A model generated the notes under the pieces. The model was not told the DNA's origin, made no database searches, and worked only from the letters and a program-made list of their open reading frames with translations. 26,358 nt of DNA, taken from positions 1 to 26,358 of IMG/VR virus record IMGVR_UViG_3300044608_001572. One strand, given 5' to 3'. A program made the translations under genes and the position numbers. The first letter of the stretch is position 1, and each line of letters opens with the position of its first letter. The stretch comes from a virus. Shown here piece by piece: positions 2,903-17,926 of this stretch.

Positions 2903-3351
2903 AGTGTGACGTCTTCCATGCCGGCTGTGCGCAGTCTCACAATGTGACCCATTTGCCACTGTTTGCTGTCAAGACCTTTCAACACGCCTAACCATTTGTT
3001 GCGAATCAGTGCAACTTCGTTGATAATGGTTTCCATGTCAATGACTTCGTCCTCGCCATCCACATACTTTTCAGCATCTCGAGCGCTGAGAGCTCGAGCA
3101 TAGGCTTCAAGATATTTTTGAAAGTGAGTACGGCGAATCTTGCGCAGTCTGATGTTGAGGTATTCAAGCACTGCTTCAATTTCCTGCAGTTGATTGAATC
3201 TCTGTTCGGTGATGCCTGGCAGCTCTTTGATACGATGTTCCAGAACGCCGGAGATCTTGCAGTCGCGTTTGGCCTCCTGTAATTCACGCTCATAGTGAGC
3301 GATGAAATCAGGAATATATGATAAATCTTGAACTATTCGGCTATACCACAT
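2899..3351 (-). CDS. uvsY: UvsY-like recombination mediator
   Basis: This 150-residue, highly charged helical protein matches my recollection of UvsY from marine T4-like phages, notably the stretch KYVDGEDEVIDM (95-106) and the C-terminal LRTAGMEDVTL. T4 UvsY is 137 residues. It binds gp32-coated single-stranded DNA and loads UvsX, promoting recombination-dependent replication and repair. The assignment is supported by uvsX and gp32 in the same window. The ATG at 3351 overlaps the stop of the upstream radical SAM gene by 11 nt, so uvsY translation is probably coupled to that gene. Similarity to T4 UvsY itself is weak by eye; the call rests mainly on the marine-phage motif pattern and context. 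Confidence 0.8.
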   Translation of the reverse strand: MWYSRIVQDLSYIPDFIAHYERELQEAKRDCKISGVLEHRIKELPGITEQRFNQLQEIEAVLEYLNIRLRKIRRTHFQKYLEAYARALSARDAEKYVDGEDEVIDMETIINEVALIRNKWLGVLKGLDSKQWQMGHIVRLRTAGMEDVTL

Positions 3352-4540
3352 GGTCCAGCCATTTTACAAAACTTTCAGGGAATATGTCAAGTCTCAACTG
3401 TCTTCTACGAGCAAACTCCTTGACGTAGTTTTGACAATTTTGCTTTTGGACTGGAGTGGGTTCGATCATGATAGATTGTAGAATTAAGTTTTTTGCCTCA
3501 GGCGGTAATTGATCCACTGAGTCCAAAATGATCTGCTTGCTTTGATCATCCATGACATGCAGCGCCAAATAGTCAGGGTCTGTACAGGACGAAAAAGCCG
3601 CAGGCACCATGCCAGCCCAGTCAATGAATTTTTTCAAACCAAAAACTGTGACATTGCTGAGTACACTGTTGAAACTGAAGCTGATACGGCGTTGCTCTAT
3701 GGCCTCGATGTTTTGTTCAAAACGTTTCCAAGAGTTGCCTGCGCGATTGAACTCATATAAGTTGTCGCAGTTTTCGGCACTGACCACTAGACTGACGTTG
3801 GGATACATTGACACTGTGTCAAGATCGCGCTGCAACCGCTTGTTGTCAACTCCAAGGCCTGTCCACACAGTGACAGGAATGGCAAAAGGCATTTGAGCCA
3901 AAAGATCCGCAAGATCGTTGTACAAAAATGGTTCTCCGCCTGATATCATGATACCACACAGTTTGCCACTGTGTACCAAAGTGCCAATTTCTTTTATCAA
4001 CAAGCGACGATTGGCAGTGTCAAGATCGCGTTGGCTAACATGCAGTCGCACACGATCGCGATCATTCAGAATCAGTCTATCATCACGACCTTGCACAGTG
4101 TCATAGTCACCGTGTTGTTGTACTTCTCTAATCCAGGCTGTGCTATAGTGTTTGCAACAGTAACTACAGGTCATGTTGCAGTCTTTGCCCACCATGATGT
4201 TGAGAATCTCAGGATCACTGTGTAGCTCAGTGTGTGTTACTTTATCACTGTTCATGGTCAGTCGACGACTGGCCACGCCCTGTGATTCTGGTATCCAACA
4301 TGTTCCGTTACAACTGGCCACTTGCAGTCCATTGAGCATGGCTGCTCGTTCAGCCAACAATTCAGGTGTGTTAAAAAGTTTTCCTGAATTGCTGCGTAAC
4401 CAATCAAAGTTCACACGCTGTGGAGCAGCTGAACAGCAACTCTGCAGTTGACTTTTGTCAAGATCTACACTGAGCCACCAAAATTTTTGACTGCAATAGA
4501 ATTTTGGGTCTACGTCACTCGTCCCAATCGGGTTCGTCAT
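3341..4540 (-). CDS. Radical SAM enzyme, long divergent form
   Basis: From the ATG at 4540 the protein has 399 residues; a TTG 30 nt upstream is less likely. The 4Fe-4S/SAM motif is CNMTCSYCCKHY, with Cys121, Cys125 and Cys128 in CxxxCxxC spacing and an additional adjacent Cys129. The SAM-binding GGEPF follows at 201-205. An N-terminal cysteine set (Cys16, Cys35, Cys36, Cys77, Cys81) could hold an auxiliary cluster, as in N-terminal twitch radical SAM proteins. It differs from the other three by a long insertion between the CxxxCxxC motif and GGEP (about 75 residues) and by its FYCSQKFWWLSVDLD start, which I recall as a distinct environmental-phage subfamily. It overlaps the small acidic gene by 26 nt and uvsY by 11 nt. 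The substrate is unknown. Confidence 0.85.
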   Translation of the reverse strand: MTNPIGTSDVDPKFYCSQKFWWLSVDLDKSQLQSCCSAAPQRVNFDWLRSNSGKLFNTPELLAERAAMLNGLQVASCNGTCWIPESQGVASRRLTMNSDKVTHTELHSDPEILNIMVGKDCNMTCSYCCKHYSTAWIREVQQHGDYDTVQGRDDRLILNDRDRVRLHVSQRDLDTANRRLLIKEIGTLVHSGKLCGIMISGGEPFLYNDLADLLAQMPFAIPVTVWTGLGVDNKRLQRDLDTVSMYPNVSLVVSAENCDNLYEFNRAGNSWKRFEQNIEAIEQRRISFSFNSVLSNVTVFGLKKFIDWAGMVPAAFSSCTDPDYLALHVMDDQSKQIILDSVDQLPPEAKNLILQSIMIEPTPVQKQNCQNYVKEFARRRQLRLDIFPESFVKWLDHVV

Positions 4541-4751
4541 CGTATTCTTCTTCGTCTTCCTGTTGATCAAGATACGCAGCTAAAGCTCGTTTGATGTCAG
4601 CATCGCCTTTGAAAGCGTCACGAATGTCATCTGGGTCACAGTCATTGTCAATCATGGTGCTGACCACTATTTCTGCTGCTTCGGACCGATCCACTGCTGG
4701 AATTAAGTGTTTTAGTTCATCCCAAAGATCTGTTACCAAAACGTCAATCAT
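4515..4751 (-). CDS. Small acidic conserved phage protein
   Basis: This 78-residue protein has a predicted helical N-terminal part (VTDLWDELKHLIPAVDRSEA) and a strongly acidic C-terminal tail (EDEEEYDDEPDWDE). It starts at an ATG that shares one nucleotide with the uvsX stop (TAATG), so it is coupled to uvsX. I recall a similar short protein with DPDD and an acidic tail near uvsX in environmental T4-like phages, without an assigned function. An acidic tail next to UvsX could mean a recombination accessory or a DNA mimic. It could also be a substrate of the radical SAM enzyme whose gene overlaps it, but it lacks a recognisable leader/core layout. Its function is unknown. Confidence 0.75.
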   Translation of the reverse strand: MIDVLVTDLWDELKHLIPAVDRSEAAEIVVSTMIDNDCDPDDIRDAFKGDADIKRALAAYLDQQEDEEEYDDEPDWDE

Positions 4752-5806
4752 TACGCCTCCTCTGTGTCTGGTGTTACTGTGTGGTCTTTGATGTTGGCAA
4801 AGTCTGCCATTAATTTATCAAGGCAACCGTCTTCGTTGCTTTCCCAGGCCTTGCGGAACTGTTTGATAACTTCGCCATCTGTGGTAGTAAATGCCAGACG
4901 ATTACCATCTTTCTTGAGCAGGCCTTTTTTCTCAGCCAAGTCAACAAGGCCACTGTAGGGATTCATGCCTGTTTCATAGGGAATCTTGACCTGCACACCT
5001 TCAAAGGGCTTGGCATAACGAGTTTTCATGACCTTGCAGGCACTACGAATACCCATGACATCTGAAATCTTGTTGCCATCTTCGTCCTCTTTGAGCTTGA
5101 GTTTCTTCATGGCCACCACAATAGAGCTGGCATAGATAAAACCTTGGCCGCCTGAGATCTTGTCATCAGGATCAAACATGTCTTGACTTGCGTAAGTGTG
5201 ATTGGTACACACCAGGCCCACATTGTAGCTACCAAACATGTTGACACAGTTACGAACCAGAGCTGTCAGGGCTTTGGGTTTGCGACCTAGATCGCCTTTG
5301 AGATCACCCGAGTCAAACTGATTGATGTCTGTGGGTGTCAGCAGCATGCCCAGGCTGTCAATCACAAACAGAACCTTGGGGCGTTCGCCGTCGGGCAAGG
5401 CCTTGTATTCTGCCATGAATGTGCTGATGGTTTTGGCCACATCGTCAATCATGGCCATGCTGAGTTTGAGCAGTTTGCTTTCGTCTGTGCTTACGCCTAG
5501 TGCATGCAACCAGGCTTCATCAAGTGCGTTTTCACTGTCAACCAAAACCACATAGATTCCTTGCTCTTGTGCATTCTTGATGATATTGCCGCTGCAGATA
5601 TAGCTCTTGCCTGCACCTGATTCTCCAGCAAACACTGTGACTTTGCCCAGGGGTACTCCGCGGTTGAAGTCTCCGGAAATTAGATAGTTCAGTGCATAGT
5701 TGCCGGTAGAGATCCAGTCAGTGGGATCGTTAAAGCCAATTGATAGTCCATCAATGCTTTTGGTAATTTCTTTTCTAAATTTGCTTACGTCAAAGGGTTT
5801 AGCCAT
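4751..5806 (-). CDS. uvsX: UvsX-type RecA-like recombinase
   Basis: I choose the ATG at 5806 (351 residues) over a TTG at 5821. GAGG lies about 9 nt before the ATG. Walker A is GESGAGKS (61-68) and Walker B lies in VLFVIDSLGML (145-155). The N-terminal FRKEITKSIDGLSIGF and the motif ISGGQGFIYASSIVVAM, which aligns with the DNA-binding loop 2 region, fit T4 UvsX rather than bacterial RecA. T4 UvsX is 391 residues. The enzyme forms filaments on single-stranded DNA and drives strand exchange with UvsY and gp32, supporting recombination-dependent replication. The start overlaps the SGNH hydrolase stop by 8 nt, which is an unusual neighbour for a recombinase. Confidence 0.95.
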   Translation of the reverse strand: MAKPFDVSKFRKEITKSIDGLSIGFNDPTDWISTGNYALNYLISGDFNRGVPLGKVTVFAGESGAGKSYICSGNIIKNAQEQGIYVVLVDSENALDEAWLHALGVSTDESKLLKLSMAMIDDVAKTISTFMAEYKALPDGERPKVLFVIDSLGMLLTPTDINQFDSGDLKGDLGRKPKALTALVRNCVNMFGSYNVGLVCTNHTYASQDMFDPDDKISGGQGFIYASSIVVAMKKLKLKEDEDGNKISDVMGIRSACKVMKTRYAKPFEGVQVKIPYETGMNPYSGLVDLAEKKGLLKKDGNRLAFTTTDGEVIKQFRKAWESNEDGCLDKLMADFANIKDHTVTPDTEEA

Positions 5807-6725
5807 GTTTGTCTGCCTCAATAAAATTTAAAATACGTTCAAAATAAATTTGATGCTGCCTGGGTCCTGGGTGTGTTCCATCTTGTGCATAATCAACAAA
5901 ACCTGCAGTTGAATTTTTTATCTCATCAACCAAGTCTATAAATCTTGGATACTGTTTCAGCAGTGCCGACATCCAGTTTATGTCCAATAGGTTCACTAGA
6001 TAAAGTGTGACACCCAGTTTGTTGCAGAAGTTAATTACCTGCTGTACACTACGCAGGCAAAATAAGGTCTGTGTTTCGCTTTCAAAGTAGTCAATGTTCC
6101 AATACCTACGATCGCGATCCAGTCCAGTATAGGTGTTGACAGTTTCACACTGCATTTGCCAGTCTTGAGCATAGTCGACTCTACCAACATTGGTAAGTCC
6201 CCAGATCACAATATCGCCGGGCCGCAGATCTGCGGTCATGATTTGATCCGCACTCCACCAAACACTGGTGCCACCGCGAGCAAGATTGATCGACGACATG
6301 TCCAGAGCCAGTGCCAACCGGTTGCGCCATTTCTCATGGAGTTCAACATCCAGAGCTTCGGTCATGCTACATCCTGCTGTCCACAACACCGGTGAATCAA
6401 CATGCCGCACAGATTCACACTCAAGAGCAGGGCACTGCCAGTCCACTGCAACGCCGCGACGACTCAGTGCATTGAACAGTCGGCCATAGGCAGCAAAGTT
6501 ATCGTTATTGTGTTTGTCAAAGTCAAAGTTGACCAATTGCACATCACGTGCTGCCTGCACTGCTGATTCAATGTTGTTGTAGCCAAGGTCCTCCACTGTG
6601 GTTTTGAAATTCAACACAGTGCTGGACGCTAGCATGGCCGCAAGATTTCCTGCTGACAACCATTGAGCATCATTATCATGCCAGGCATGATATTGGTGAC
6701 TGATGTATAGAGTGTCAATGGCCAT
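5799..6725 (-). CDS. SGNH/GDSL hydrolase-like protein
   Basis: From the ATG at 6725 the protein has 308 residues; a longer frame to 6803 lies inside the upstream radical SAM gene and is rejected. The C-terminal two thirds carry SGNH blocks: the nucleophile Ser120 in AGCSMTEA, glycine block II in NLARGGTS (about 147-154), Asn179 in WGLTNVGR and the catalytic Asp282/His285 in DGTHPG. Residues 1-105 lack recognisable motifs. SGNH enzymes hydrolyse or transfer esters, often O-acetyl groups on glycans, so this may trim or add acyl groups in the pathway encoded around it. It overlaps the radical SAM gene by 11 nt and uvsX by 8 nt. No signal peptide is seen, so it acts in the cytoplasm or in the virion. 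Confidence 0.78.
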   Translation of the reverse strand: MAIDTLYISHQYHAWHDNDAQWLSAGNLAAMLASSTVLNFKTTVEDLGYNNIESAVQAARDVQLVNFDFDKHNNDNFAAYGRLFNALSRRGVAVDWQCPALECESVRHVDSPVLWTAGCSMTEALDVELHEKWRNRLALALDMSSINLARGGTSVWWSADQIMTADLRPGDIVIWGLTNVGRVDYAQDWQMQCETVNTYTGLDRDRRYWNIDYFESETQTLFCLRSVQQVINFCNKLGVTLYLVNLLDINWMSALLKQYPRFIDLVDEIKNSTAGFVDYAQDGTHPGPRQHQIYFERILNFIEADKHG

Positions 6726-7848
6726 ACAACACCGGAAACACTGCCTGGCTGTTGCATCCACGACGTTGATCCAAGATGGCCAACTGTTTAAGACTGTGTG
6801 CAAAATTTTTGGTCACTGGAGTTTGCAGATATCTCAAAAGATTTTGGTAACTGTTTTCCAACAAGAAACCTGGATTGTCCTCAATGCGTCGCTGTAATTC
6901 TTTCACAACAGATTCTAACACACTGTCAGGCAAATGTCTAATGTTTAGATGATCTGGCTCCAATAATGCACCAATCACAAATGCATTGGCATGAAAGCCT
7001 TGGCAACGTAACCAATCAACACAGTCAAATATTGACAGTGGGTTCAGTAAAAAATGCAGCATGTTGAAAGTGATGCGGTGTTCCAGTTGTTGAATGTGTT
7101 TGAGATTGGTAACAAAATCATTCCAACTTCCTCCCCAACGAATGTATTCAAACTCATCGTTCATGGATTCTACACTGATGGTCCAATGTACATTTTTGAA
7201 TTCGCACACTCGTTCAAACACTTGGGTATCCACCCGACTGAGATTGGTATTGATTCTTATGTTGACATCCGGATTCACTGCTGCCAACAGTTCTAAGTTT
7301 TCCTTCATCAACAGTGGTTCACCGCCGGCCAAATAAACATGCTTGAGATTTTTGGCCTGATCCAAGATCCACTGTTTGAAATTTTGTTGTTGTTGATCAC
7401 TGGGGCGGGTTGGCCAAATATCCAGTTCACTGGCCCAGCGACTGCTGTATTCTGGACTGCAATACACGCAGGCAAAATTGCATAGATTGCTCCAGCGTAT
7501 GTCAACAGTGTGTAGTTGATGTTGACCGGGTGTGTACAATTTGGGATTGACCTGTTTTAGTTCGCGAATATAAAAAACTCTGTCGCTAATTATGTTGAAC
7601 CCGCGAGCATCAGCTTCAAGGTCTTTACAGGGTTGACAACTTGATACGGCTTGACCATTTACAATTTTGTTCTGACGGTCAAGATTTTCACCTGTGGTCA
7701 ACAACTGCTCAATGTCATGATTGGCAATGTTGCCCACAGGTTCACTGCTGCGTATGCAGTTTTTGACAGTGCCGTCATGATTGTACATCACACCAGCCCA
7801 AGGCATGGGGCAGAAGTGTGGATTGGTCAACATGTCCTTAGGTGTCAT
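6715..7848 (-). CDS. Radical SAM enzyme with N-terminal twitch-type cysteines
   Basis: From the ATG at 7848 the protein has 377 residues. Upstream TTG 7860 and downstream ATG 7833 are alternatives, and the start is not certain. The radical SAM motif is CNFACVYC (Cys123, Cys127, Cys130), with the SAM-binding GGEPL at 175-179. An N-terminal cluster FCPMPW...NC...SCQPCKD (Cys13, Cys31, Cys71, Cys74) matches the N-terminal twitch layout and probably binds an auxiliary Fe-S cluster. Such auxiliary domains are common in peptide- or sugar-modifying radical SAM enzymes. It overlaps the SDR gene by 11 nt and the SGNH hydrolase gene by 11 nt. It is similar in layout to the 380-residue protein at 16784-17926, including a Trp-Ala pair after CxxxCxxC (SSRWAS versus SSKWAS), so these are probably paralogues. 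Confidence 0.87.
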   Translation of the reverse strand: MTPKDMLTNPHFCPMPWAGVMYNHDGTVKNCIRSSEPVGNIANHDIEQLLTTGENLDRQNKIVNGQAVSSCQPCKDLEADARGFNIISDRVFYIRELKQVNPKLYTPGQHQLHTVDIRWSNLCNFACVYCSPEYSSRWASELDIWPTRPSDQQQQNFKQWILDQAKNLKHVYLAGGEPLLMKENLELLAAVNPDVNIRINTNLSRVDTQVFERVCEFKNVHWTISVESMNDEFEYIRWGGSWNDFVTNLKHIQQLEHRITFNMLHFLLNPLSIFDCVDWLRCQGFHANAFVIGALLEPDHLNIRHLPDSVLESVVKELQRRIEDNPGFLLENSYQNLLRYLQTPVTKNFAHSLKQLAILDQRRGCNSQAVFPVLYGH

Positions 7849-8383
7849 AACTAGGTCCAAGGCTTATGTCATACACCTGCAGCGAAGGATCAGTGTCGTA
7901 CAAAATGGCCATCAAGGTACGTGTCCACAATTCAAGATCAGCCGAGGGTGGCACTGTTTTTTCCGGAGTGGTTGCAATATCTCCTGGACGCACTAGGTAG
8001 ATTTTCAATGTGGGATCAATCAGTCTCAACTGCCGCACAGACTCTTCCAGGGCAACTTTCTGTACTCGATACTGAGCCATGTCATACCCAGGCATCACGC
8101 TCACTGGATCCTGTGCCATCATGGTAGATATTACCACGATAGATTTGCCAGTGTTTTGCCAACGTTGTGCCACATTCCAAAGCAGTTGTGTCTGGGCGAA
8201 TCCGCTTTGAGCATTGTTCACAAACACATCACAGTCGGCCACGGCATTGGTAATTTTTTCTGTGAGATGGATATTTTGGCCAGTTCTGCGACTCAGCCCC
8301 ATGACCTCGTGACCGCGCTGTTGATATTCGCGAGCCAAGGCTTGGCCTATGCCATTGGTGTGTCCGGTTATGGCAATCTTCAT
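7838..8383 (-). CDS. Short-chain dehydrogenase/reductase (short form)
   Basis: This 181-residue Rossmann protein has the SDR cofactor motif TGHTNGIG (6-13), NNA (56-58) in place of NNAG, a catalytic Ser86 in ISTMM and the YxxxK pair Tyr105/Lys109 in QYRVQK. It is therefore probably a functional NAD(P)H-dependent oxidoreductase, although at 181 residues it is shorter than the usual 230-250. An Arg pair after SR (SRRTG) would favour NADP(H). Its start overlaps the oxygenase stop (ATGA), and its stop lies within the start of the radical SAM gene. A sugar or hydroxyl/keto intermediate is the likely substrate class, but this is inferred from neighbours only. Confidence 0.83.
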   Translation of the reverse strand: MKIAITGHTNGIGQALAREYQQRGHEVMGLSRRTGQNIHLTEKITNAVADCDVFVNNAQSGFAQTQLLWNVAQRWQNTGKSIVVISTMMAQDPVSVMPGYDMAQYRVQKVALEESVRQLRLIDPTLKIYLVRPGDIATTPEKTVPPSADLELWTRTLMAILYDTDPSLQVYDISLGPSYDT

Positions 8384-8940
8384 TGCAGCAACTCCACGGG
8401 CTCACGGAAAAAAGTAAAGCTGGCCACAATTCTGGGCACACCCACAGGATCAACCATCTCCACACTATGAGCACGGCCACTGTTGAACACTATGGGCCAA
8501 GGCATGTCTAAAAGTTCGTCGCACAAAGTGATTTGATCTTGCGGTATGCCTGAAAGATCATGTACCAAATTACCAAACTGATTGGTGTGTTGTGGGCATT
8601 CTTGCAGCACACGAGGTTCAATGTGATACCAACGATTGGCCCAACCCACTGTGTTTAGCACAGGAAAATTGATTTTGGCCACCACCGGTGCTTCGTCAAT
8701 GTGCAAGGGCAGCTGATCATTGTTTCTGATCACAGTGATCGCACTGTGCCTTGGCATCAGGCTCAGGCTCTTGAACCACAAACCCAATGCAGGCACATGT
8801 TGCAACAGTGATCTTGTATCTACAAAATTCCAACCAAGATCACCCGTGGTCAACACCGTGGTTTGATTCATCACAAAATCCAAAATACCTTGTGATATTT
8901 CTGTTTGTTGATCACAGTGCAGTCTAGCAAAAGATTTCAC
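8380..8940 (-). CDS. Fe(II)/2-oxoglutarate oxygenase-like protein
   Basis: The best start is GTG at 8940, because AAGGA lies 8-9 nt upstream; the longer TTG-initiated frame to 8961 has no such support. The 186-residue protein contains LPLHIDEAP (His80, Asp82), then SGRAHSVEM (His158) and PRIVASF (Arg170). This spacing fits the HxD...H iron ligands and the 2-oxoglutarate-binding Arg of cupin-fold oxygenases such as the aspartyl/asparaginyl hydroxylase type. I recall related short proteins in environmental T4-like phages. It would hydroxylate or oxidise an unknown substrate in the cytoplasm. It overlaps the radical SAM gene by 17 nt and the SDR gene by 4 nt. Confidence 0.65.
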   Translation of the reverse strand: MKSFARLHCDQQTEISQGILDFVMNQTTVLTTGDLGWNFVDTRSLLQHVPALGLWFKSLSLMPRHSAITVIRNNDQLPLHIDEAPVVAKINFPVLNTVGWANRWYHIEPRVLQECPQHTNQFGNLVHDLSGIPQDQITLCDELLDMPWPIVFNSGRAHSVEMVDPVGVPRIVASFTFFREPVELLQ

Positions 8941-9913
8941 TATAATAGTCCTTGTGGTCAATGTTTCTCAGTTGATCTTGCTGTTGCAAAAATCTGTCAA
9001 GTTCTTGAGAGTTATCTCTGTCCACCGCAATCAGTGGCAACAGTGCCTTGCTTTGGCTGTGTGACAGACTCTGTTTGGCAGCCAAAGTAAATCTATTGCG
9101 GTAACGCACACTCAACACATCCGGTGTGTGCAGTAAAGCATAGCTGTGATTGCCTTGTACATGTTCCATGTATTCAAAAATTCTGTCCATGTCCATGACA
9201 TTGAGCGCATTTACCGTGGTCCAATGATTTAGCTTGATTCCGGGCATGGATCGATACACTGATAGATTCTGTTCAAAACGTGTCCAGGCTATGGGCCAAC
9301 GCACGTAGTCATGCACACGACCAATACCATCAAAACTCACTGTGACTGTTACATCCACACCACTGGCAGCTATTGATTCTAGTTCGTTGATGATCAAACC
9401 ACAATTGGTATTGACTCTCACGCTGGTCACACTGGGTGGCAAATTTTGCAACAGTCTGCGATAGTTTGGACTTGCACTGGGTTCGCCGCCGTTGATATCA
9501 AGATGAACGATTCTATTCAAAGGCAATTGCCAAAATTTATTGCTATTGTCAATCATGACAAAATTTTTGCCGTGCAGGCTACCAATTTTGGTACTGAGTT
9601 CTTGACTGCAGAACTGACATGCACTGTTGCAAACATTGTCTAGCACACCACCAACCACAAGATAATCTGGTTGGGTCTGTTGTTGATGAAAACGTATGGC
9701 ATGCACACGAATGCTGTCATTGCCCAGGCTTTCTGTTTCCCTACAGCGTTGACATTCTTCGGGCCACAACTTTTGTTTGATGTTGTACAACCATTCACTG
9801 TTGGACATTTCTGTGAGACTGTCAAACTCCGGAGCGCCCACCATGTGGCCGCAGCGGCTCACAGTGCCGTTGGGATTGAATCTCACAAAGTGATCAAGTC
9901 TTGGGCACCACAT
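8924..9913 (-). CDS. Radical SAM enzyme, shorter form with N-terminal cysteines
   Basis: From the ATG at 9913 (second codon of a TTG-initiated frame) the protein has 329 residues. It starts within two residues of its first cysteine: MWCPRLDHFVRFNPNGTVSRCG. Four N-terminal cysteines (3, 21, 54, 57) form a twitch-like set. The radical SAM motif is CNSACQFC (Cys95, Cys99, Cys102) and the SAM site is NGGEPSASPN (GGEP at 142-145), which departs from the GGEPLL of its paralogues. The ASPN insertion and shorter C-terminal region suggest a different substrate. It overlaps the sulfotransferase-like gene by 20 nt and the oxygenase gene by 17 nt, placing three modifying enzymes in one coupled unit. Confidence 0.86.
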   Translation of the reverse strand: MWCPRLDHFVRFNPNGTVSRCGHMVGAPEFDSLTEMSNSEWLYNIKQKLWPEECQRCRETESLGNDSIRVHAIRFHQQQTQPDYLVVGGVLDNVCNSACQFCSQELSTKIGSLHGKNFVMIDNSNKFWQLPLNRIVHLDINGGEPSASPNYRRLLQNLPPSVTSVRVNTNCGLIINELESIAASGVDVTVTVSFDGIGRVHDYVRWPIAWTRFEQNLSVYRSMPGIKLNHWTTVNALNVMDMDRIFEYMEHVQGNHSYALLHTPDVLSVRYRNRFTLAAKQSLSHSQSKALLPLIAVDRDNSQELDRFLQQQDQLRNIDHKDYYSEIFC

Positions 9914-10562
9914 CAACGAGATTTATCAATTGTTTACTGCGTTCAAACACCAGATGATATAGTTCTGAGTGGTTGTGTACTTTTTCTATCAGCTGTCCAA
10001 AAGTCATGCACTGATTGACATGATCAAACACTATTTGATCCAGGAACATATAGAGTTCAAGGCGCTGCCAATCAAAATCTTGAATACGATTGGCCAGCCA
10101 GGCTGTGATAGGTTGTACTCCAGCATCACTGTTGAGATCAGTCAACTCACTGATCTTGTGCATGGGCTCAAACTGCAACAGTTGATTGCTGCCACCAAAG
10201 CTGGCAAGATTCATCAACCAAAAAAATTGTGGAGCATAGTGTCTGTTGAGAAACAGATAGTTGTCTACAAAATAAAGAATGGTATTGACATCTAGATCAG
10301 GATCCTTGCTCAACAGATGTTGTATGTAGGTGTTGACACCACTGTAAAATCTTTCGCGTGGGTCTCTCACAAACACCGTGATGGGCGCGGCAATGTTGGC
10401 TATGTCGTGATTGGTCACAGTGTTCCAACCACGGTCGGGCATGGTTTCATACAGGCTGCTGCGTCCACATTTGAATATGGGGTACACATAGCTCGAACCA
10501 GGTTCAATCTCAATCACCTCACAGTGATTGGGAAAAATAGTTTTGGTTATTTCATCAAGCAT
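9894..10562 (-). CDS. Sulfotransferase-like protein (PAPS-dependent)
   Basis: This 222-residue protein has the two PAPS-binding signatures of the sulfotransferase superfamily. A P-loop-like 5' phosphosulfate site lies in YPIFKCGRSSL (27-37, with Lys31, Gly33 and Ser35/36). A 3' phosphate-binding segment lies in VFVRDPRERFYSGVN (63-77). FVRDP with a following Arg and Ser is characteristic of Sulfotransfer_2-type and carbohydrate sulfotransferases. It would move sulfate from host PAPS to a hydroxyl on a sugar or other acceptor. No signal peptide or membrane anchor is seen, unlike Golgi enzymes. Its start overlaps the glycosyltransferase-like gene by 8 nt, and its 3' end overlaps a radical SAM gene by 20 nt. 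Confidence 0.75.
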   Translation of the reverse strand: MLDEITKTIFPNHCEVIEIEPGSSYVYPIFKCGRSSLYETMPDRGWNTVTNHDIANIAAPITVFVRDPRERFYSGVNTYIQHLLSKDPDLDVNTILYFVDNYLFLNRHYAPQFFWLMNLASFGGSNQLLQFEPMHKISELTDLNSDAGVQPITAWLANRIQDFDWQRLELYMFLDQIVFDHVNQCMTFGQLIEKVHNHSELYHLVFERSKQLINLVDVVPKT

Positions 10563-11589
10563 GTATTTCTAATTGTCTAAGCCAGTCACGGCTGAAATAC
10601 CAGTCATAGTTGTGTTCTATGGTTTCCTGCTCTAGAAGATACAGATCATGCCATTCGTGTGGTTTCATTTTACTGAAACCCGACACCATTGACAGCAATT
10701 TTACCAACCTTTTCACTGGATGTGGTTCAAGATCAAAACTATAGTCAAAAATCTTTCTAAACAATTTGAATCCCCACACTGACTCTAGATGATGATGAAA
10801 TTGCCAGGCACCATATGATGCCCACAGTGACTTGCAAACAATGGGATACATGGTTTTTTCTGTCACCACGGGATGATAGCTCAAGGTGTCAATTTCAGCC
10901 ACCAACTGTAAAAAAGCCTTGTTGATACGCAGTGCTGCTGATTTGATCAAGGCACAGTGGTCACTGGGATCATGATATTGATCACTATAGATAGTTTGAT
11001 AAAACTGCTCGGCCGCCGCATCATCGTCAGTCATGATAAATTTTCGCAATATTCGATCATGCTCAGGCAAATCTTGCGTGAGTCGCATGATGTTGCCATC
11101 TAGACCTTGCGCGGTATATCTAAAATTCTTGGTACTTGTGGCAGGATCAAACCAGCCCCATTTCCACATGGCTGCGGTGAGAAACTGTCGACTTTCCCGA
11201 TTACCGCCCACCAGTGTCATTGCAAAAGTTTCCCATGATTTGTCAGTGGGCACATCGTGTGCATCCAAGAGGTTTTCATTGAACTTCATGGCACGTTCCG
11301 GACTGACCAAGTCTACTCTAAAATCAATGTTGGGATAGCGTTGACGCACAGTGTCATTGAACACATAGTAACTGTACAGTGTCAGGGGTCTGCCCAAATC
11401 CTGTAGTTGTTGTATGTATTCATTGCCACCGTTGATGTCAATGAAGCCTATGGAATCACTGTGATAAACAGTGTTGACATCATCAGGCACCTCAAGTGGA
11501 TCCCATTCAAGATCACGCACTTGTTCTTTGCCAGCGTTGATAGCATGTTGACTCCAACTGGGAGGTTTGGTGTAAATCGCCTTGCTCAT
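10555..11589 (-). CDS. Glycosyltransferase-like protein of environmental phages (TEKT motif)
   Basis: The start is placed at the ATG at 11589 (344 residues). An in-frame ATG at 11610 falls inside the hairpin that ends the gp32 message, so it is unlikely. The C-terminal third carries VVTEKTMYPIVCKSLWASYGAWQF (241-264) followed by GFKLFRKIFDYSFD (272-285). This matches a family I recall from marine phages with a TEKT...P...G...L...GF.TF...D.SYD pattern and a GT10-like (fucosyltransferase-type) C-terminal half. In GT10 the Glu/Lys residues bind the nucleotide sugar. No Shine-Dalgarno sequence is seen. It heads the overlapping cassette that continues into the sulfotransferase-like gene, so it probably provides or extends the glycan acceptor. 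The exact sugar is unknown. Confidence 0.62.
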   Translation of the reverse strand: MSKAIYTKPPSWSQHAINAGKEQVRDLEWDPLEVPDDVNTVYHSDSIGFIDINGGNEYIQQLQDLGRPLTLYSYYVFNDTVRQRYPNIDFRVDLVSPERAMKFNENLLDAHDVPTDKSWETFAMTLVGGNRESRQFLTAAMWKWGWFDPATSTKNFRYTAQGLDGNIMRLTQDLPEHDRILRKFIMTDDDAAAEQFYQTIYSDQYHDPSDHCALIKSAALRINKAFLQLVAEIDTLSYHPVVTEKTMYPIVCKSLWASYGAWQFHHHLESVWGFKLFRKIFDYSFDLEPHPVKRLVKLLSMVSGFSKMKPHEWHDLYLLEQETIEHNYDWYFSRDWLRQLEIHA

Positions 11590-11597
11590 AAAATGAC

Positions 11598-11625
11598 ACA
11601 GGCGAGACATTGCTGCCTCGCCTGT
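11598..11625 (-). terminator. Rho-independent terminator behind gp32
   Basis: On the minus strand ACAGGCGAG is followed by a 10-nt loop and a perfect complement CTCGCCTGT, then GTCATTTTAT. The 9-bp GC-rich stem begins 7 nt after the gp32 stop. The T-run is short (four in a row), so termination may be partial, which would let some transcription into the enzyme cassette. Confidence 0.7.
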
Positions 11626-11632: not shown

Positions 11633-12640
11633 TTACTGCTTTTGTTGTCTAGCGCGGATCATGGCCAGGATGTCTTCGGCCTTTTGAGTTCCAGCTGGTT
11701 TGGCCACTGGTGCCGAAGCCACTGCAGGCTCGTCTTCGTCCTCGGCCACAGGTGCCGGTGCTGGCTTGGCTGCCGGAGTCACCACCTTGAGTGCAGGTGC
11801 TGGAGTGTCCTCATCAACTTCGGCTGCGGTGTTTGCAGCAGTGCCGGCCGGTGCTTGCACCCCCGCAGGACGGAAGTATTGACCCCAACGCTCTACATCA
11901 TAGGGCTGACCGTCAACGCTGGCTTCGAACATTTCTTTGATAACACGCAGCTCTACGTCTGTGGGCTTCTTGGGCAGGAATGTGCTCAAGTCATAGAGGC
12001 CATGTGCTTCAATTGCTTCAAGTTCTTCGGTCTGCAAGCCAGACTCTTTGCGAGCCCATTTGCTGGTGTTGTAGTCAGCATAGCCGCCTTTGGAGGTCTT
12101 GGCAATGCGGAAATCCAGACCACGCTGCATGTCAGTTGGCAGTTCTTCCAGTTCAGGATCCATCAAGGCCGACTTGATGATGGTAAACAGTTGCGGTCCA
12201 ATAATGAACTTGCGAATAGGATTGTCCGGAGTCTTGTCATCGGCAATGGGATTTTCGCGCACAAAGCCTTGAAAGATATAGCTGCGTTTCTTCCAATACT
12301 TGCGACCCATTTCTTCTAGGCTCTTGTCTTTGAACCAAGTACGCACTTCTGCCAAGATAGGGCAAGCTTCGTTCCACATTTCCATGCAGGGCACTTGCAC
12401 CATGACTTGTTTGGATTCCATTTCGCCCTTGACACCATTGAAGGGCAAGCGAATCATTGCTCGCTCAACCCAGAAAAAAGTGTTTTTGCTGTTGCCATCG
12501 GGCAGGAACCTGATCAAGGCGCTTTGGCCTTCTTCCATGTTCCAGTGTGGGTAAATTGATTTGTCTCCGCCTTGGGAGTTGTTTGAACCTTTGCTTTCTG
12601 CTGCCTGTAGTCTTGCTCGAATTTCTGCTAAAGATGCCAT
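11633..12640 (-). CDS. gp32: Single-stranded DNA-binding protein gp32
   Basis: This 335-residue protein has the T4 gp32 organisation: an N-terminal basic segment (SLAEIRARLQAAESKG), an OB-fold core with IRFLPDGN, FFWVERAMIRLPF and KYWKKRSYIFQGFV, and a long Ala/Pro/Glu/Asp-rich C-terminal tail. The tail ends in a helix, EDILAMIRARQQKQ. It coats single-stranded DNA and recruits replication and recombination partners through the acidic tail. T4 gp32 binds zinc with His64, Cys77, Cys87 and Cys90. Here only Cys85 and Cys93 are evident in the matching region, so zinc binding may be altered or lost. The ATG at 12640 has a strong AAGGAG 8 nt upstream, a rarity in this window, consistent with high expression. 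It has its own promoter and terminator. Confidence 0.95.
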   Translation of the reverse strand: MASLAEIRARLQAAESKGSNNSQGGDKSIYPHWNMEEGQSALIRFLPDGNSKNTFFWVERAMIRLPFNGVKGEMESKQVMVQVPCMEMWNEACPILAEVRTWFKDKSLEEMGRKYWKKRSYIFQGFVRENPIADDKTPDNPIRKFIIGPQLFTIIKSALMDPELEELPTDMQRGLDFRIAKTSKGGYADYNTSKWARKESGLQTEELEAIEAHGLYDLSTFLPKKPTDVELRVIKEMFEASVDGQPYDVERWGQYFRPAGVQAPAGTAANTAAEVDEDTPAPALKVVTPAAKPAPAPVAEDEDEPAVASAPVAKPAGTQKAEDILAMIRARQQKQ

Positions 12641-12761: not shown

Positions 12762-15194
12762 TTATTTAGTGCGATTGGGGAAAGCCAGTGATTTTATTCT
12801 TGCCAAAGGATCGCTAGACTCGTAATAGCTGCCAGTAATGGCTGCGTTGTAGTTCATGGGATCGTCATCCTCTTCCACAAAACTGTTGAGATTGTCACCT
12901 TCAGGTAAATCATCAATTTGTTGGTTAATCTTATTCATCATTTCTTGACGATTACCTATTTTTTGCATCAAAGACTCATACTCATCAATTGATGGAGCAA
13001 ATGATTTCAATTTCTCATTGCTGGTACTGGGAGGCTCAGGACTGGTTGCTGTTGTTGGTGTTGATGAGCGTGTTGCTGCTGTGTTGGGGACAGCAGGAGC
13101 AAATGATTTCAGTTTCTCAATGCTGGCACTGGGAGCCTCAGGACTGGTTGCTGTTGGTGCTGGTGCCATTGAGTCTGATGCAGGCGTAGATGTTGACGTT
13201 GGTGTTGAGGTTGTTGTTGAAGAAACCGGTGCCTGTCTTGCAGCAATCTTGTCAAGGGTATCACCTGCCTGCACAGTGTAACTGCCGGCGCCGCCAGGCA
13301 ACGTAAGAGTTTGACCGACTTTGATTTTGTTAACGTCAGCCACGCCAGACAGTTTGGCAATTTCTTGAGCGCCAGCGGTGCCTTTGTAGGTTGAAGGTGT
13401 TTTGGGAGCGGCTGGTGTTTTATTAGGTGCTGCTGCTGGTGTTTTGTCTGCCGCTGCTGGTGTTTTGTCTGCTGCTGGTGCTGCTGTTGGTTCTTTGTCG
13501 GCCGCTGGTGCTTTGTTGGTTGCTGGTGTTGCGTTTCCACCACCAGACAAACTAGATACCATGGCAAGTGGTACCCCTGCGCCAATCACCAATCCGCCAG
13601 CTCCTGATGCTATGTTGGATAGTTTTCCTGGTGCTCCAGGTCCTGGAGGACGCGAACCAGCAGTCATTGATTGCGGGGCGGCCAAGGCTGGCGGCTGAAC
13701 CTGAACGGCCTTACCCATGAATTTTTCAGGCTGACGTAGAATAGTCCCGCGACCGGTGCCGCCTAGACCTATGTCAATATTCATTGGCGATCCTCCGCGA
13801 CCACCTAGTCCAAATGTGCCGCCGCCACCACCGCCTGAGCCGCCGCCAAAACCTCCGCTGGCGCCGCCTTCCCAAGGCACAAGATTTTGTTTGCCAAATT
13901 CCATGCTTTTGTTTTCTGAAACCCCATCACGTTCGGTATTGCTTTGGACCTGATCTGGTGTTTGATCAACATTGAGACTCACGCCCAACTGTTGCAGTCG
14001 GGCCTGTACTTCGGTGTCGTCCCAGCAGTTGGCATTGGGATCTTCTTTGGCCAGTTCTTGTAAACGGTCAAACAATCGATCATCACCTATGATATCATCC
14101 AACTGTTCAGTGGCATTCATGGCTCCGGCGCCGACCATGAGTGGTTCGCTCATGAGTTGCTGTAACTTTTCCCACTTCTCAGGAGTGTCTGGCAAGGCCC
14201 AGGTTCCTTCTACCAAGCGATTGGCCCAGCTTTCAAAAATTTCTGCTTCTTTCATGGTGTTTTGCCTCAAACGTGCTAAGAGAGGCAAAGCAGCCTCTAT
14301 TCTGTAATCAAGTGTCTGTTCAATAAACATGGTCTTGATTGAGTCAACCAGTTCCTCCTGCAGAGTGATTTCGGCAGGATGCCATGTTTCAAAATAATTC
14401 TTGTACCCGGACGCGGTGCCCAATCTCCGCATTGATTCTCTAAGTTCATTGTAGTAGTGATGTGCTGTGTCAACCAATTCTGCTGTTACGCCTTCCAACA
14501 CATGTCTGGCACTGGCGCGATTGAATCTTGACAACACAGCTATTTCATTGACCATTTCTGTTATGTGGCTGCCACGTATGTCGTATGGCTTGCCGCCTTG
14601 ACGAACATGCTCTAACATTGCCTTGGCGCCTGCAAGGTTTTTGTACTGCAATTTGTAACGCTCGCCTTCACTGGTTTCAATGAAAATGCTTTCAATGTAA
14701 CGATGTCTAGCATCATTTTCGCCCAAGAGCTTGGCATGATTTATGACCAAACGTGCTTCAGTGGCCTGTCCCATGTAACTGGTACGACGATTGCCGTAAT
14801 AGCCCTCAAACAGTCCTTCCTTGATTGCGGCCATGCCACGCATGGTGTGCTTGAGCTTGCTGATATTGGTGGGGGTCCAGTCCCAGCGATTGCGCTTGGC
14901 AAACTCTCCCAACTGAACGAGAAAATCAAAAAACTCCTGCTTGTCTTCGGGATCGTCAATACCGCGTCCAAGGTTATCGCCAAAAAATCCTTGGACAGTC
15001 CGTTGTTTTTTCTCGTCGTTGAGTATCAGCACCATGCGACCATAGTTGTTGCCACTGCTGGCCACATAATCAAAGCTGAAAACTTTGGCATTTTCTGCGT
15101 CGCTGTCCATGCCCTGAGCATCTTTTATTTCAATGTCAAAGTCACGAGTGGTCAGCAGATCTGCCAACTTGGTGGATATATTTTGTTGTGCCAT
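12762..15194 (-). CDS. Large conserved phage protein with Gly-rich linker, low-complexity repeats and LysM-like pieces
   Basis: The start is the ATG at 15194 (MAQQN, 810 residues), 10 nt after the gp17 stop; an upstream ATG at 15239 lies inside gp17. Residues 1-400 are a folded, charged region (FFGDNLGRGIDDPEDKQEFFDFL, DARHRYIESIFIETSEGERYKL, PYDIRGSHI) that I recall as a conserved unknown of environmental T4-like phages. Then come a Gly-rich linker (442-468), a hydrophobic stretch (525-548, possibly membrane-active) and Ala/Pro/Lys repeats (557-600). The next parts are LysM-like fragments: AQEIAKLSGVADVNKIKVGQTLTLPGG (609-635) and SYTVQAGDTLDKIA (638-651). A Thr/Ser/Pro tail carries a duplicated EKLKSFAP. 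LysM domains bind peptidoglycan-type glycans, so a virion or cell-wall role is plausible, but the gene's function is unproven. Confidence 0.85.
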   Translation of the reverse strand: MAQQNISTKLADLLTTRDFDIEIKDAQGMDSDAENAKVFSFDYVASSGNNYGRMVLILNDEKKQRTVQGFFGDNLGRGIDDPEDKQEFFDFLVQLGEFAKRNRWDWTPTNISKLKHTMRGMAAIKEGLFEGYYGNRRTSYMGQATEARLVINHAKLLGENDARHRYIESIFIETSEGERYKLQYKNLAGAKAMLEHVRQGGKPYDIRGSHITEMVNEIAVLSRFNRASARHVLEGVTAELVDTAHHYYNELRESMRRLGTASGYKNYFETWHPAEITLQEELVDSIKTMFIEQTLDYRIEAALPLLARLRQNTMKEAEIFESWANRLVEGTWALPDTPEKWEKLQQLMSEPLMVGAGAMNATEQLDDIIGDDRLFDRLQELAKEDPNANCWDDTEVQARLQQLGVSLNVDQTPDQVQSNTERDGVSENKSMEFGKQNLVPWEGGASGGFGGGSGGGGGGTFGLGGRGGSPMNIDIGLGGTGRGTILRQPEKFMGKAVQVQPPALAAPQSMTAGSRPPGPGAPGKLSNIASGAGGLVIGAGVPLAMVSSLSGGGNATPATNKAPAADKEPTAAPAADKTPAAADKTPAAAPNKTPAAPKTPSTYKGTAGAQEIAKLSGVADVNKIKVGQTLTLPGGAGSYTVQAGDTLDKIAARQAPVSSTTTSTPTSTSTPASDSMAPAPTATSPEAPSASIEKLKSFAPAVPNTAATRSSTPTTATSPEPPSTSNEKLKSFAPSIDEYESLMQKIGNRQEMMNKINQQIDDLPEGDNLNSFVEEDDDPMNYNAAITGSYYESSDPLARIKSLAFPNRTK
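12763..12770 (-). promoter_or_regulatory. Late promoter-like ACTAAATA box upstream of gp32
   Basis: The minus strand reads ACTAAATA, overlapping the TAA stop of the 810-residue gene and lying 3 nt upstream of the -35 hexamer of the gp32 promoter. It shares the TAAATA core with boxes before five other starts. It could give late expression of gp32 in tandem with the sigma-70-type promoter, but the match includes a stop codon and may be chance. Confidence 0.3.
12994..13156. repeat. Imperfect direct repeat (two about 61-nt copies)
   Basis: Copies at about 12994-13054 and 13096-13156 begin GGAGCAAATGATTTCA and end GGACTGGTTGCTGTTG. They are offset by 102 nt (34 codons), so the frame is kept. They encode two ATSPE-PS-S-EKLKSFAP units near the C-terminus of the LysM-like protein. 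This is an in-frame tandem duplication with drift. Confidence 0.85.
13395..13526. repeat. Low-complexity K(T/E)PAA repeat region
   Basis: This stretch encodes residues 557-600 of the LysM-like protein, with repeated AADKTPAA, PNKTPAA and PKTP units. At DNA level it is a series of GCTGGTGTTTTGTCTG-type units on the plus strand. Such Ala/Pro/Lys spacers are common extended linkers and expand or contract by slippage. Confidence 0.8.
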
Positions 15195-15201
15195 GATTCT
15201 A

Positions 15202-15209
15202 TATTTAGC
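15202..15209 (-). promoter_or_regulatory. Late promoter-like GCTAAATA box before the LysM-like gene
   Basis: The minus strand reads GCTAAATA, overlapping the gp17 TAA stop and ending 7 nt before the ATG at 15194. It matches six of the eight T4 late core bases (TATAAATA). No Shine-Dalgarno sequence lies between it and the start. Confidence 0.4.
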
Positions 15210-16782
15210 GCATGATACTGATAAACGGCATGGGTTCAATCACGTTGTCACTGTGATCTTTGAGGTGAGCGTCAAGATCACTGTGATAGGTTTGCAGCAG
15301 CATCAGCATGCGCACTGCCAACAGCGAAGACATCACAAGATCGTCTGTTTCCCCGGGCTTGGCTGCGTAGCTGGTACCCGAAGCCACAAAGGTTTTGAGT
15401 TCACTCACCAGGGGACGACTAAACAATTTCATGCGCCCGCTTTCTACCAAGATTTTGAACTTGTTGCAGGCAGTAAGCTTGGCCTTGTGAGTGGTGTTGA
15501 AACCTTTGCGGAATCTACGTCCGCTGCTGCCAACCACACTGTTGTCGCTGAGAAAGTAACCAGGAATGTTTTCTTCCCCATATTCTGCAATGCTCAAAAG
15601 AGCAGCTTCGCCTATGGTGTTGTTCTCCACGCTGTAATAGACATTTTTAGAATCTTTTATCACAGCATGTATTTCTTTAACAATGTCCGCCAAGATACGT
15701 ATCTGGCTGGGTATGTCAGTGCGATTGTGGCGCCATTCTGCCACTTGTTCTGTGGTGCCTGCTTCAAACACCTGTATACCAGCAGGATCACCTCCGGTGC
15801 CTAGACTGGGATCAAGTGCCACAACATATATGGCGTTTGGCTTGATTTCTCGGTACCAACGAACTTGACCAGTTTTACGCACAGGCTCTGTGCCTTCGAG
15901 ATCCATGAGCTTGATGGGTGAGATGAGAGTTTCATCGTTGATAACAAACTCGCAGTCCATTTCTCTGCGGAAACGTTCATCGCCCAGTTGCTGCCGTTGC
16001 TGTTCGCCCCAGCTGTCGTCGCGCTCAGGATGTTCGCGCCAGTAACTGCGAAACGCCTTGAAACCATTGATGCCAAGCTCGGTTTGATTGCCGTGTTCGT
16101 CCTCGCACTTGTTGGCGCCCTTCCACAAAAAAGCAAATTGATCTTCGTCAGAGTTGGGAGTAGAGGTTATGATTGCCTTACCACCTGTGGCCAAGGTAGG
16201 CGAAATAGAAGTCCAGAATTCTTTGGCTATGGTAGGTCGCACAAACGCAAATTCGTCAGCGTACAGCAGCGAGATACTCATGCCTCGTCCCGTGGTTTCT
16301 GTTGTGGTCTGACTCACAATACGACTACCATTGTCAAACTCCAGGCTGCCTTTGTTGTAACTGGTGCTGCCTGCTCTGATGTGATTGGGACACAGTTCAT
16401 AAGCATAGCGAATACGTTGCATGATTTCCTGTGCGCCAGTATATTTGTGTGCTGCAATTAAAATTGTTGAATCAGGCACAAACATTGCGTACCACAAGAG
16501 ATATCCCGCAGCCGAAGTTGACTTGCCTGTCTGTCGCGGCATCAACGATATTGAAAATCTGTAGTTGTGATAGGTCTTGATCAGTCTGTGCTGATACTCA
16601 AAGGGATGATACAGCATCTTGCCGCGTGTGGGGTGCTGTATGTAGAAAAAGTTGTCTAGGAAGTAGATAGGACCGTCCACAGGATCTGCACAGCGGCTGA
16701 ATTCTTCTATTTGTTGTTCTGTGTAGACTTCAAAGCGATGTGGCGCTTTGACCAACACAGTTTCCATGAGATTGGGTTTCAT
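15205..16782 (-). CDS. gp17: Terminase large subunit gp17 (packaging ATPase and nuclease)
   Basis: This 525-residue protein has the two terminase domains. The ATPase domain shows Walker A PRQTGKST (82-89), Walker B LLYADEF (172-178, catalytic Glu177) and the coupling motif TSTPN (206-210). The RNase H-fold nuclease domain shows ALDPSLGTGGDPAG (Asp324), SVENN (Glu385) and GETDDLV (Asp480/481), giving the acidic triad for cutting concatemers. It pumps DNA into the prohead through the portal. T4 gp17 is 610 residues, so this version is shorter at both ends. The ATG follows the radical SAM stop by a single nucleotide. Unlike T4, where genes 16 and 17 are adjacent, here gp16 lies about 7 kb upstream. 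Confidence 0.96.
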   Translation of the reverse strand: MKPNLMETVLVKAPHRFEVYTEQQIEEFSRCADPVDGPIYFLDNFFYIQHPTRGKMLYHPFEYQHRLIKTYHNYRFSISLMPRQTGKSTSAAGYLLWYAMFVPDSTILIAAHKYTGAQEIMQRIRYAYELCPNHIRAGSTSYNKGSLEFDNGSRIVSQTTTETTGRGMSISLLYADEFAFVRPTIAKEFWTSISPTLATGGKAIITSTPNSDEDQFAFLWKGANKCEDEHGNQTELGINGFKAFRSYWREHPERDDSWGEQQRQQLGDERFRREMDCEFVINDETLISPIKLMDLEGTEPVRKTGQVRWYREIKPNAIYVVALDPSLGTGGDPAGIQVFEAGTTEQVAEWRHNRTDIPSQIRILADIVKEIHAVIKDSKNVYYSVENNTIGEAALLSIAEYGEENIPGYFLSDNSVVGSSGRRFRKGFNTTHKAKLTACNKFKILVESGRMKLFSRPLVSELKTFVASGTSYAAKPGETDDLVMSSLLAVRMLMLLQTYHSDLDAHLKDHSDNVIEPMPFISIMR

Positions 16783-16783
16783 T

Positions 16784-17926
16784 TTATTGCACCAAAAAAT
16801 CTAGTTCTGGCCATAGGGTTTTGAATTGGCCAGCTGTGTCAGGATGATACAATTCTTCTGTGATTCGTATATGATCACGAAACGCCTTGGTAATTTTGGT
16901 CACAGGTGCAGAAATTTCAGCATACTGCTTGATTGCGGCGGTGAAAAACTGTTGTTCTTCCGGCGAAGCAAGCCCAGAATCAAGAAACCGTTGAGACTCT
17001 TGCCGGGCCAATTCAGCCACTCTTGAATCGTGTTGGAACGGATCAAGATATTCAGGTTGAAACAAATTTTGCCACTTACATGTGAGTTGGTTGTCAGCTA
17101 GGTACTGTCTAAATTCACACACTCTTGTGGCATTGTACAAATTGTAAACAGCATGCACACCGCCCCAGTGGCCTTGTGATCGCATCAGATGTTTGACTAA
17201 ATCGAGATTTTTTTGCATTAAGTTCCAGTCGGATCCATGTCTAACATACTCCAGTCTTTGGTCTATGTTGTCAAAGCTTATACTCCAGCCCACTCGGTTT
17301 CGTTTGGATAATTTTTCAACTATGCGATTGCGTTCAAAATCAACATTGAGATTAGTGATCAAGGTAATGATCACCGACTCAGGCACCACATCCAACAATC
17401 TTTCATTTTCAGGCAACAGCAGAGGTTCTCCCCCCACCAGAGCCACTTCGTGAATGTGTTGGCCATGTTTGGCAATGAAATCACACACACTGTCAAAATA
17501 GGGTCTAGTACCACTGCGGAATGGGATGTGTTTGATTGAAGCCCACTTGCTACTGCAGGCTTCGCCGCAGTAGTTGCAACTGAGATTGCAAGTGGTGTTC
17601 CATCTCACATCCACGATCACCGGATAGTGATACAGTTCACCTGCTGTGCTGTAATCAAAATCAGGATTAACGGCATTGTGCCATTGACGTTCACCGTCTG
17701 CCCCAAAACGTTCTGCTTTAACACAGTTTGTGCAATAACTGTGTGCTTGACCTTGTGATATGCTGCGGCGAATTTCACGCATGACTTCGCCATTGAGGAT
17801 TTCTTCAATAGTGCTGTTGTTGAGATTGCCCAGCATGTTGGGATTACCAGCACAACAGGTTTTTACGTCACCGCGAGGATTGATATGTAGACCGCGCCAG
17901 GGCGCTGCACAAAAGAATTTGGACAT
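16784..17926 (-). CDS. Radical SAM enzyme with N-terminal twitch-type cysteines
   Basis: This 380-residue protein begins FFCAAPWRGLHINPRGDVKTCCAG. N-terminal cysteines 6, 24, 25, 65 and 68 (SYCTNCVKAE) form the auxiliary-cluster layout of N-terminal twitch radical SAM proteins. The radical SAM motif is CNLSCNYC (Cys113, Cys117, Cys120), and the SAM site is GGEPLLLP (165-172). It lies directly before gp17 with one nucleotide between the stop and the gp17 start, so it is co-expressed with packaging genes and physically apart from the other three radical SAM genes. Its start codon is buried in an inverted repeat with a TAAATA box in the loop. The substrate is unknown; candidates are a peptide or a sugar. 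Confidence 0.87.
   Translation of the reverse strand: MSKFFCAAPWRGLHINPRGDVKTCCAGNPNMLGNLNNSTIEEILNGEVMREIRRSISQGQAHSYCTNCVKAERFGADGERQWHNAVNPDFDYSTAGELYHYPVIVDVRWNTTCNLSCNYCGEACSSKWASIKHIPFRSGTRPYFDSVCDFIAKHGQHIHEVALVGGEPLLLPENERLLDVVPESVIITLITNLNVDFERNRIVEKLSKRNRVGWSISFDNIDQRLEYVRHGSDWNLMQKNLDLVKHLMRSQGHWGGVHAVYNLYNATRVCEFRQYLADNQLTCKWQNLFQPEYLDPFQHDSRVAELARQESQRFLDSGLASPEEQQFFTAAIKQYAEISAPVTKITKAFRDHIRITEELYHPDTAGQFKTLWPELDFLVQ

Follow-up and report, generated by a model that had tools for sequence, protein, structure and literature searches.

The window analyzed here is the entire 26,358-base IMG/VR virus fragment IMGVR_UViG_3300044608_001572, and the genes in question are four radical S-adenosylmethionine (radical SAM) genes, A, B, C and D, which lie on its minus strand at the positions given by an original prediction made from the letters alone (Table 1). 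They are set among phage backbone genes of the same strand, encoding a tail tube, a gp4-like head closure protein, TerL, a virion protein, gp32, UvsX and UvsY. A occupies the uvsX-uvsY interval and D is next to terL, while C and B are part of an all-or-none module inserted between gp32 and uvsX. In this module a sulfotransferase-like gene (sulfo), C, an optional AspH-like gene, a short-chain dehydrogenase/reductase gene (SDR) and B follow one another, co-directional and overlapping, and the order is fixed save that the AspH-like gene stands ahead of C in two contigs.

Co-occurrence was counted in 93 distinct contigs covering the interval from gp32 to uvsX, all retrieved by gene A or uvsX, not by module genes. 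Sulfo and C occur together in 25 of these contigs and are jointly missing from 68, with no contig holding only one of them (Fisher p = 3e-23 for sulfo versus C, a value that overstates the evidence, kinship among contigs not being accounted for). SDR and B occur together in 23 and are jointly missing from 70, again never split, and always accompanied by sulfo and C. Contigs fetched by sulfo that span the same interval give a similar picture: C is found in 36/36, SDR and B in 32/36, and sulfo and C alone in the other 4. A contig obtained with another query (L008) carries a diverged C-like gene with SDR and B, and sulfo was not detected in it. Apparent stops within some C matches proved, in the one case checked, to be read-through beyond the gene end and not frame breaks. 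As for the genes around the module, hypG lies between gp32 and uvsX in 11 module-less contigs and hypE adjoins B in some contigs; the presence of an APS kinase did not track the module.

Gene A, in contrast, varies independently of the module. Either A or A2, a second gene that often adjoins it, is found in 5/10 contigs with the module and in 15/41 without it (Fisher p 0.49). Between uvsX and uvsY, 38 of 62 uvsX-fetched contigs have only the small gene seen here at 4515-4751, and 23 of the remainder have A or A2; A has at least 115 relatives, and those that could be placed sit in this same interval. The small gene was considered as the precursor of a ribosomally synthesized and post-translationally modified peptide (RiPP) and rejected, as it occurs without any radical SAM gene. 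D could be scored beside terL in 14 contigs, being found in 2/2 with the module and in 0/12 without it, too few to judge; its orthologs occupy the same terL-adjacent place in other contigs. With a link between B and C, an independent A and a D scorable in 14 contigs only, the data do not show that all four genes make up a single pathway. The earlier suggestion of several chemistries acting on one product is supported for B and C only, by their all-or-none pattern. That the four genes are stitched into core phage genes by overlaps is true of A, B and C, which overlap their neighbours, but not of D, which abuts terL across a 1-nt gap.

The phage itself belongs to the T4-superfamily phages related to RaK2-like jumbo phages, as judged from the order terL, structural gene, gp32, uvsX, uvsY and from UvsX, whose closest cultured relatives are RaK2-like (about 66% identity). 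Vibrio phage 2.275.O and Pectobacterium phage CBB share this backbone order, but in both the five genes follow one another with no genes in between, so that no radical SAM or module gene occupies these sites; the uvsX-uvsY site of A and the terL site of D are accordingly empty in cultured relatives. A tblastn search of cultured phages found relatives of B only in Vibrio phages (KVP40-like and related, 21-24% identity) and none of A, C, D, SDR, sulfo or the 2-oxoglutarate (2OG)-oxygenase-like gene. A scan of prokaryote genomes with B orthologs gave 7 loci, all at 24-29% identity.

Table 1. Features of the window in the order in which the minus strand is read.
Feature	Position	Strand	Basis and remarks
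Radical SAM gene D (N-terminal twitch)	16784..17926	-	380 aa; NF033640 203 bits; Pfam SPASM 46 bits, residues 6-68
Terminase large subunit (terL), backbone	15205..16782	-	PHROG terminase, E 2.7e-114
Virion structural protein, backbone	12762..15239	-	PHROG_13484; position conserved in RaK2-like phages
gp32 single-stranded-DNA-binding protein, left border of module site	11633..12640	-	PHROG_1192, E 7e-65
hypG, conserved gene	10555..11610	-	No Pfam or PHROG match; possibly glycosyltransferase-like, by eye only
Sulfotransferase-like gene (sulfo), obligate partner of C	9894..10562	-	Conserved motifs and fold matches
Radical SAM gene C (N-terminal twitch)	8924..9913	-	329 aa; NF033640 131 bits
Putative Fe(II)/2OG oxygenase (AspH-like), optional module member	8380..8961	-	Conserved H87xD89, H165, R177
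Short-chain dehydrogenase/reductase (SDR), obligate partner of B	7838..8383	-	Pfam adh_short_C2 and adh_short above cut-off
Radical SAM gene B (N-terminal twitch)	6715..7848	-	377 aa; NF033640 245 bits; AlphaFold2 pLDDT 95.2
hypE, conserved gene, SGNH-hydrolase-like by motif (weak)	5799..6773	-	Pfam ALGX E 0.16 in an ortholog; GCSMT and DGTHPGPRQH motifs
UvsX recombinase, backbone	4751..5806	-	PHROG_97, E 5e-68
Small acidic protein	4515..4751	-	Occurs with or without a radical SAM gene after it
Radical SAM gene A (N-terminal twitch)	3341..4540	-	399 aa; NF033640 148 bits; 5 conserved N-terminal Cys
UvsY recombination mediator, backbone	2899..3351	-	PHROG_231, E 5.5e-15
GT8 (460-1143), methyltransferase (1140-1571), cytidylyltransferase-cupin fusion (1578-2333)	460..2333	-	Pfam; glycan-type genes past uvsY

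Every junction from hypG to uvsY overlaps by 1-59 nt and the gap between gp32 and hypG is 22 nt, which counts for co-transcription. A strong promoter-like site (11/12) is seen at 12759-12731, upstream of gp32, and a terminator-like hairpin of 12 pairs at 11598-11625, directly past gp32, where it overlaps the beginning of hypG; this hairpin could limit read-through into the module. Past uvsY, the cupin part of the cytidylyltransferase fusion is of the mannose-6-phosphate-isomerase type.

The four proteins were earlier named N-terminal-twitch enzymes, and a hidden Markov model search agrees: all match NF033640 (N_Twi_rSAM, NCBIfam) over most of the model, with 147.7 bits for A, 244.8 for B, 131 for C and 202.9 for D. 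With the curated whole-protein threshold at 170 bits, B and D belong to the family and A and C count as relatives, not members. Pfam Radical_SAM also matches all four (above cut-off for B and D), and Pfam SPASM matches the N-terminal part of D above cut-off (46 bits), that of B (17.7 bits) and C (13.9 bits) weakly and that of A not at all. CxxxCxxC, GGEP and a separate N-terminal cysteine set are found in each, down to the finer motifs that had been read from the sequence: B and D share WAS and GGEPLL, C has GGEPSASPN, and A carries a long insertion ahead of GGEPF. Aligning 93 phage relatives drawn from five ortholog groups (A, A2, B, C and D) shows the four N-terminal cysteines, the three cysteines of CxxxCxxC and GGE to be invariant, so the N-terminal pattern is more than chance. 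The B, C and A2 groups have exactly seven conserved cysteines, to which A adds positions 36 and 319 and D positions 25 and 148. The AlphaFold2 model of B is confident (predicted local distance difference test, pLDDT, 95.2) and has a TIM-barrel-type fold, which together with the motifs in all four places the proteins in the radical SAM superfamily; its best matches among solved structures are radical SAM enzymes, many of them with auxiliary domains, and include with tied Z values both peptide maturases (SuiB, anSME, CteB) and sugar or nucleoside enzymes (BlsE, DesII). Neither this model nor the pattern of invariant cysteines refutes the proposed N-terminal cluster, and A, B, C and D are each predicted to carry a radical SAM [4Fe-4S] site and one auxiliary iron-sulfur (Fe-S) site.

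The arrangement of these domains sets the phage enzymes apart. SPASM/twitch enzymes such as anSME, SuiB, CteB, BlsE and MoaA, which are among the best matches in solved structures, likewise combine a radical SAM barrel with an auxiliary Fe-S domain, but this domain is C-terminal in the classical enzymes and N-terminal in the phage ones. NF033640 proteins have the same order as the phage enzymes, an N-terminal twitch cysteine set and then the barrel, although all five phage groups have diverged from the cellular members; we found no known reaction for this family. In a tree of 86 sequences (FastTree, Shimodaira-Hasegawa-like local supports, midpoint rooted), A, B, C and D are clean groups with support 1.0 each, A2 is a group at 0.97 with phage array copies nested inside it, and B is sister to D (0.97) as A is to A2 (0.98). 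Together with 12 phage-array copies and a single cellular sequence on a long branch, the five groups make up a clade (support 0.98); the ortholog groups sit within a radiation of the NF033640 family that is mostly of phages. This is the family expansion that had been suspected, and the phylogeny and strong shared genomic context elsewhere do not fit the opposite view of four unrelated genes. B and D had also been taken for close paralogues; they are sister groups, but at 33% identity over 255 aa they are not close.

The companion enzymes are characterized to different depths. The SDR has 28.4 bits with Pfam against a cut-off of 26.6 and a YxxxK that is invariant in 24 orthologs, and is a member of its family. 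Sulfo, the AspH-like protein, hypE and hypG receive no family from Pfam, NCBIfam or PHROG, and Pfam is silent also with diverged orthologs. Nevertheless, 21 orthologs of sulfo conserve K31/S35/S36 and R66xP..R71..S74-G75, corresponding to the K..SS loop of the 5'-phosphosulfate-binding (5'-PSB) motif and the R...S of the 3'-phosphate-binding (3'-PB) motif; its model is of moderate quality (pLDDT 81), and nearly all of its top 50 fold matches are sulfotransferases that use 3'-phosphoadenosine 5'-phosphosulfate (PAPS), with a best Z of 5.3 and heparan sulfate 3-O-sulfotransferases as the best matches (Z about 5). Motifs and modeled fold are suggestive of a PAPS-sulfotransferase-like enzyme. In the AspH-like protein, H87, D89, H165 and R177 are conserved in 10 orthologs, the usual Fe(II)/2OG pattern.

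Larger genomes hold many more genes of this kind. NF033640 matches, the weakest of them partial, number 13 in a 340-kb contig, 14 in one of 183 kb, 15 in one of 145 kb, 8 in one of 182 kb and 0 in one of 152 kb. Among eight long contigs checked, sulfo occurs only in the three with 13-15 matches, and these three also hold a tandem radical SAM array with a carbamoyltransferase gene among those at its flanks. In the arrays at L294, L295 and L296 (in G036, G037 and G040), the tandem N-terminal-twitch genes are flanked by the carbamoyltransferase gene and, judged by motif, by glycosyltransferase-like, GDSL-like and amidinotransferase-like genes. A gene for an A-type Fe-S carrier lies near an N-terminal-twitch gene in two places (G005:6696-6992, at about 200 bp; G036:23708-24004, at about 1.3 kb); as a marker of radical SAM load this carrier was rejected, since it occurs in the 152-kb contig that has no N-terminal-twitch match. 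Elsewhere, a contig, perhaps of phage origin, of a metagenome-assembled genome (MAG) named 'Gammaproteobacteria bacterium MED685' has about seven consecutive radical SAM genes, most of them N-terminal-twitch (L129:2995-11506), followed by an SDR-like open reading frame and a PNP_UDP_1 gene (methylthioadenosine/S-adenosylhomocysteine, MTA/SAH, nucleosidase type), and this 1.2-Mb genome has 21 NF033640 matches. Two Bdellovibrionia MAGs (G033 and G034, the genomes of L132 and L133) have 37 and 22, some of them fragments or weak; by such gene counts the expansion of the family extends to relatives of predatory bacteria.

What could the module make? The best explanation, which we hold tentatively and at somewhat less than an even chance, is a tailoring pathway that operates at replication time on a carbohydrate-like or small-molecule substrate. 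C and B would generate 5'-deoxyadenosyl radicals that abstract hydrogen atoms from one such substrate. The four-cysteine auxiliary cluster, if fully cysteine-ligated as the seven conserved cysteines permit, would relay electrons and would fit a two-electron oxidation; auxiliary clusters act as such a relay in anSME and BtrN. The SDR would then reduce and the sulfotransferase-like enzyme sulfate, finishing the product, whose likeliest use might be the decoration of a phage or host surface glycan. A radical SAM enzyme paired with an SDR has a counterpart in AprD4/AprD3, a radical SAM diol dehydratase and its SDR partner: the pairing resembles B and SDR, and AprD4 is a weak fold match of B, with no sequence kinship seen. 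Within this explanation a carbohydrate-like substrate is favored, on modeled fold and gene context, by the matches of sulfo and by the nearby GT8 and cytidylyltransferase genes: the GT8 and cytidylyltransferase-cupin genes lie just downstream, and the carbamoyltransferase of the three long module-bearing contigs was counted on the same side. A bolder proposal, possible and more open to doubt, is that a clade of large T4-superfamily phages, while replicating its DNA, produces a novel glycan or small molecule by a multi-step radical pathway comprising the sulfotransferase, the two radical SAM enzymes, the SDR and an optional 2OG oxygenase, to which the largest genomes add the radical SAM arrays and the carbamoyltransferase.

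Several points weigh against a tailoring pathway of this kind. The fold matches of sulfo are weak at Z about 5, with Pfam giving none; the Z values of B are tied between peptide maturases and sugar or nucleoside enzymes, so its fold does not choose a substrate class; the cytidylyltransferase and/or GT8 genes occur near uvsY in 24/38 contigs irrespective of radical SAM genes and show no significant association with the module (p 0.27); and the co-occurrence counts take no account of how the contigs are related. Alternatively, A, B, C and D might resemble SPASM/twitch maturases of RiPPs or proteins and crosslink or oxidize a structural protein of the phage or a protein of the host, with the 2OG oxygenase hydroxylating the same protein. 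That peptide maturases (SuiB, anSME, CteB, SkfB) make up many of the top PDB matches of B and that the N-terminal domain of D exceeds the Pfam SPASM cut-off speak for this possibility, which we nevertheless consider unlikely: the overlapping module genes leave no space for a dedicated precursor, the sole small neighbor (4515-4751) is found in 38/62 contigs without a radical SAM gene between uvsX and uvsY, and a sulfotransferase-like gene together with an SDR is an unusual set for RiPPs.

It is rather unlikely, too, that the four are simply unrelated cargo genes lodged at tolerant core-gene sites with no common pathway. The independence of A from the module is what this would predict, and other core-gene sites are indeed used by the family, such as the pair of gp47-like and gp46-like recombination nuclease genes, which is flanked by radical SAM-family genes in one contig (L297:4145-8570) and has an A2-type gene between its members in another (L298:4460-8535). 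However, a fixed gene order ties C and B to sulfo and SDR, so that independent cargo fits A and perhaps D and is contradicted for B and C. Less probable again is DNA hypermodification, in which enzymes made alongside gp32, UvsX and UvsY would build a modified base or nucleotide for the phage DNA. The genes do sit within the replication and recombination block and the same long genomes have a carbamoyltransferase gene; as a lead only, one report connects a carbamoyltransferase with modified cytosine in the DNA of environmental phages (PMC8670742). Yet this carbamoyltransferase lies outside the module, no thymidylate-synthase-like hydroxymethylase (PF00303) was found in 8 long contigs, one of them of 340 kb, and matches to QueE (7-carboxy-7-deazaguanine synthase) reach at most about 31 bits against NCBIfam cut-offs of 260 and 300. 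RiPP formation and DNA-base modification are thus both weaker than carbohydrate or small-molecule tailoring. Finally, a nucleotide-analogue or immune function, with modified nucleotides produced in the manner of viperin, is very improbable: PADLOC pVip models and the NCBIfam viperin model match weakly across the radical SAM core and viperin structures are among the fold matches of B, but the scores of 22-38 bits fall far below the curated cut-off of 180 (NF038283) and those of NF033640 are several-fold higher.

Multiple radical SAM genes in T4-like phages are already known and the conserved module appears to be the new part. Nishimura et al., 2017 described 12 radical SAM genes in the T4-like TARA_ERS488813_N000010 and linked them to Fe-S metabolism (PMC5332604); as here, many such genes share one phage, and the passage on them describes no conserved sulfo-radical SAM-SDR-radical SAM module. 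In pelagimyophages, radical SAM cassettes are units of gain and loss in marine T4-like genomes, but they lie in the host recognition cluster, as opposed to the gp32, uvsX and uvsY sites used here (PMC7029224). No description of a conserved sulfo-C-SDR-B module was found in the literature searched, which was covered in part at the level of titles and abstracts.

Phages rich in radical SAM genes had thus been noted before without a testable unit, and the four-gene module (sulfo-like, C, SDR and B) supplies one: it defines a minimal set for co-expression, allows phages that carry it to be compared with matched ones that lack it, and has a vacant site in cultured relatives. Should its product prove real, a lytic phage would encode oxygen-sensitive radical chemistry as a pathway, and the module would offer a first way of approaching the reaction catalyzed by N-terminal-twitch enzymes.

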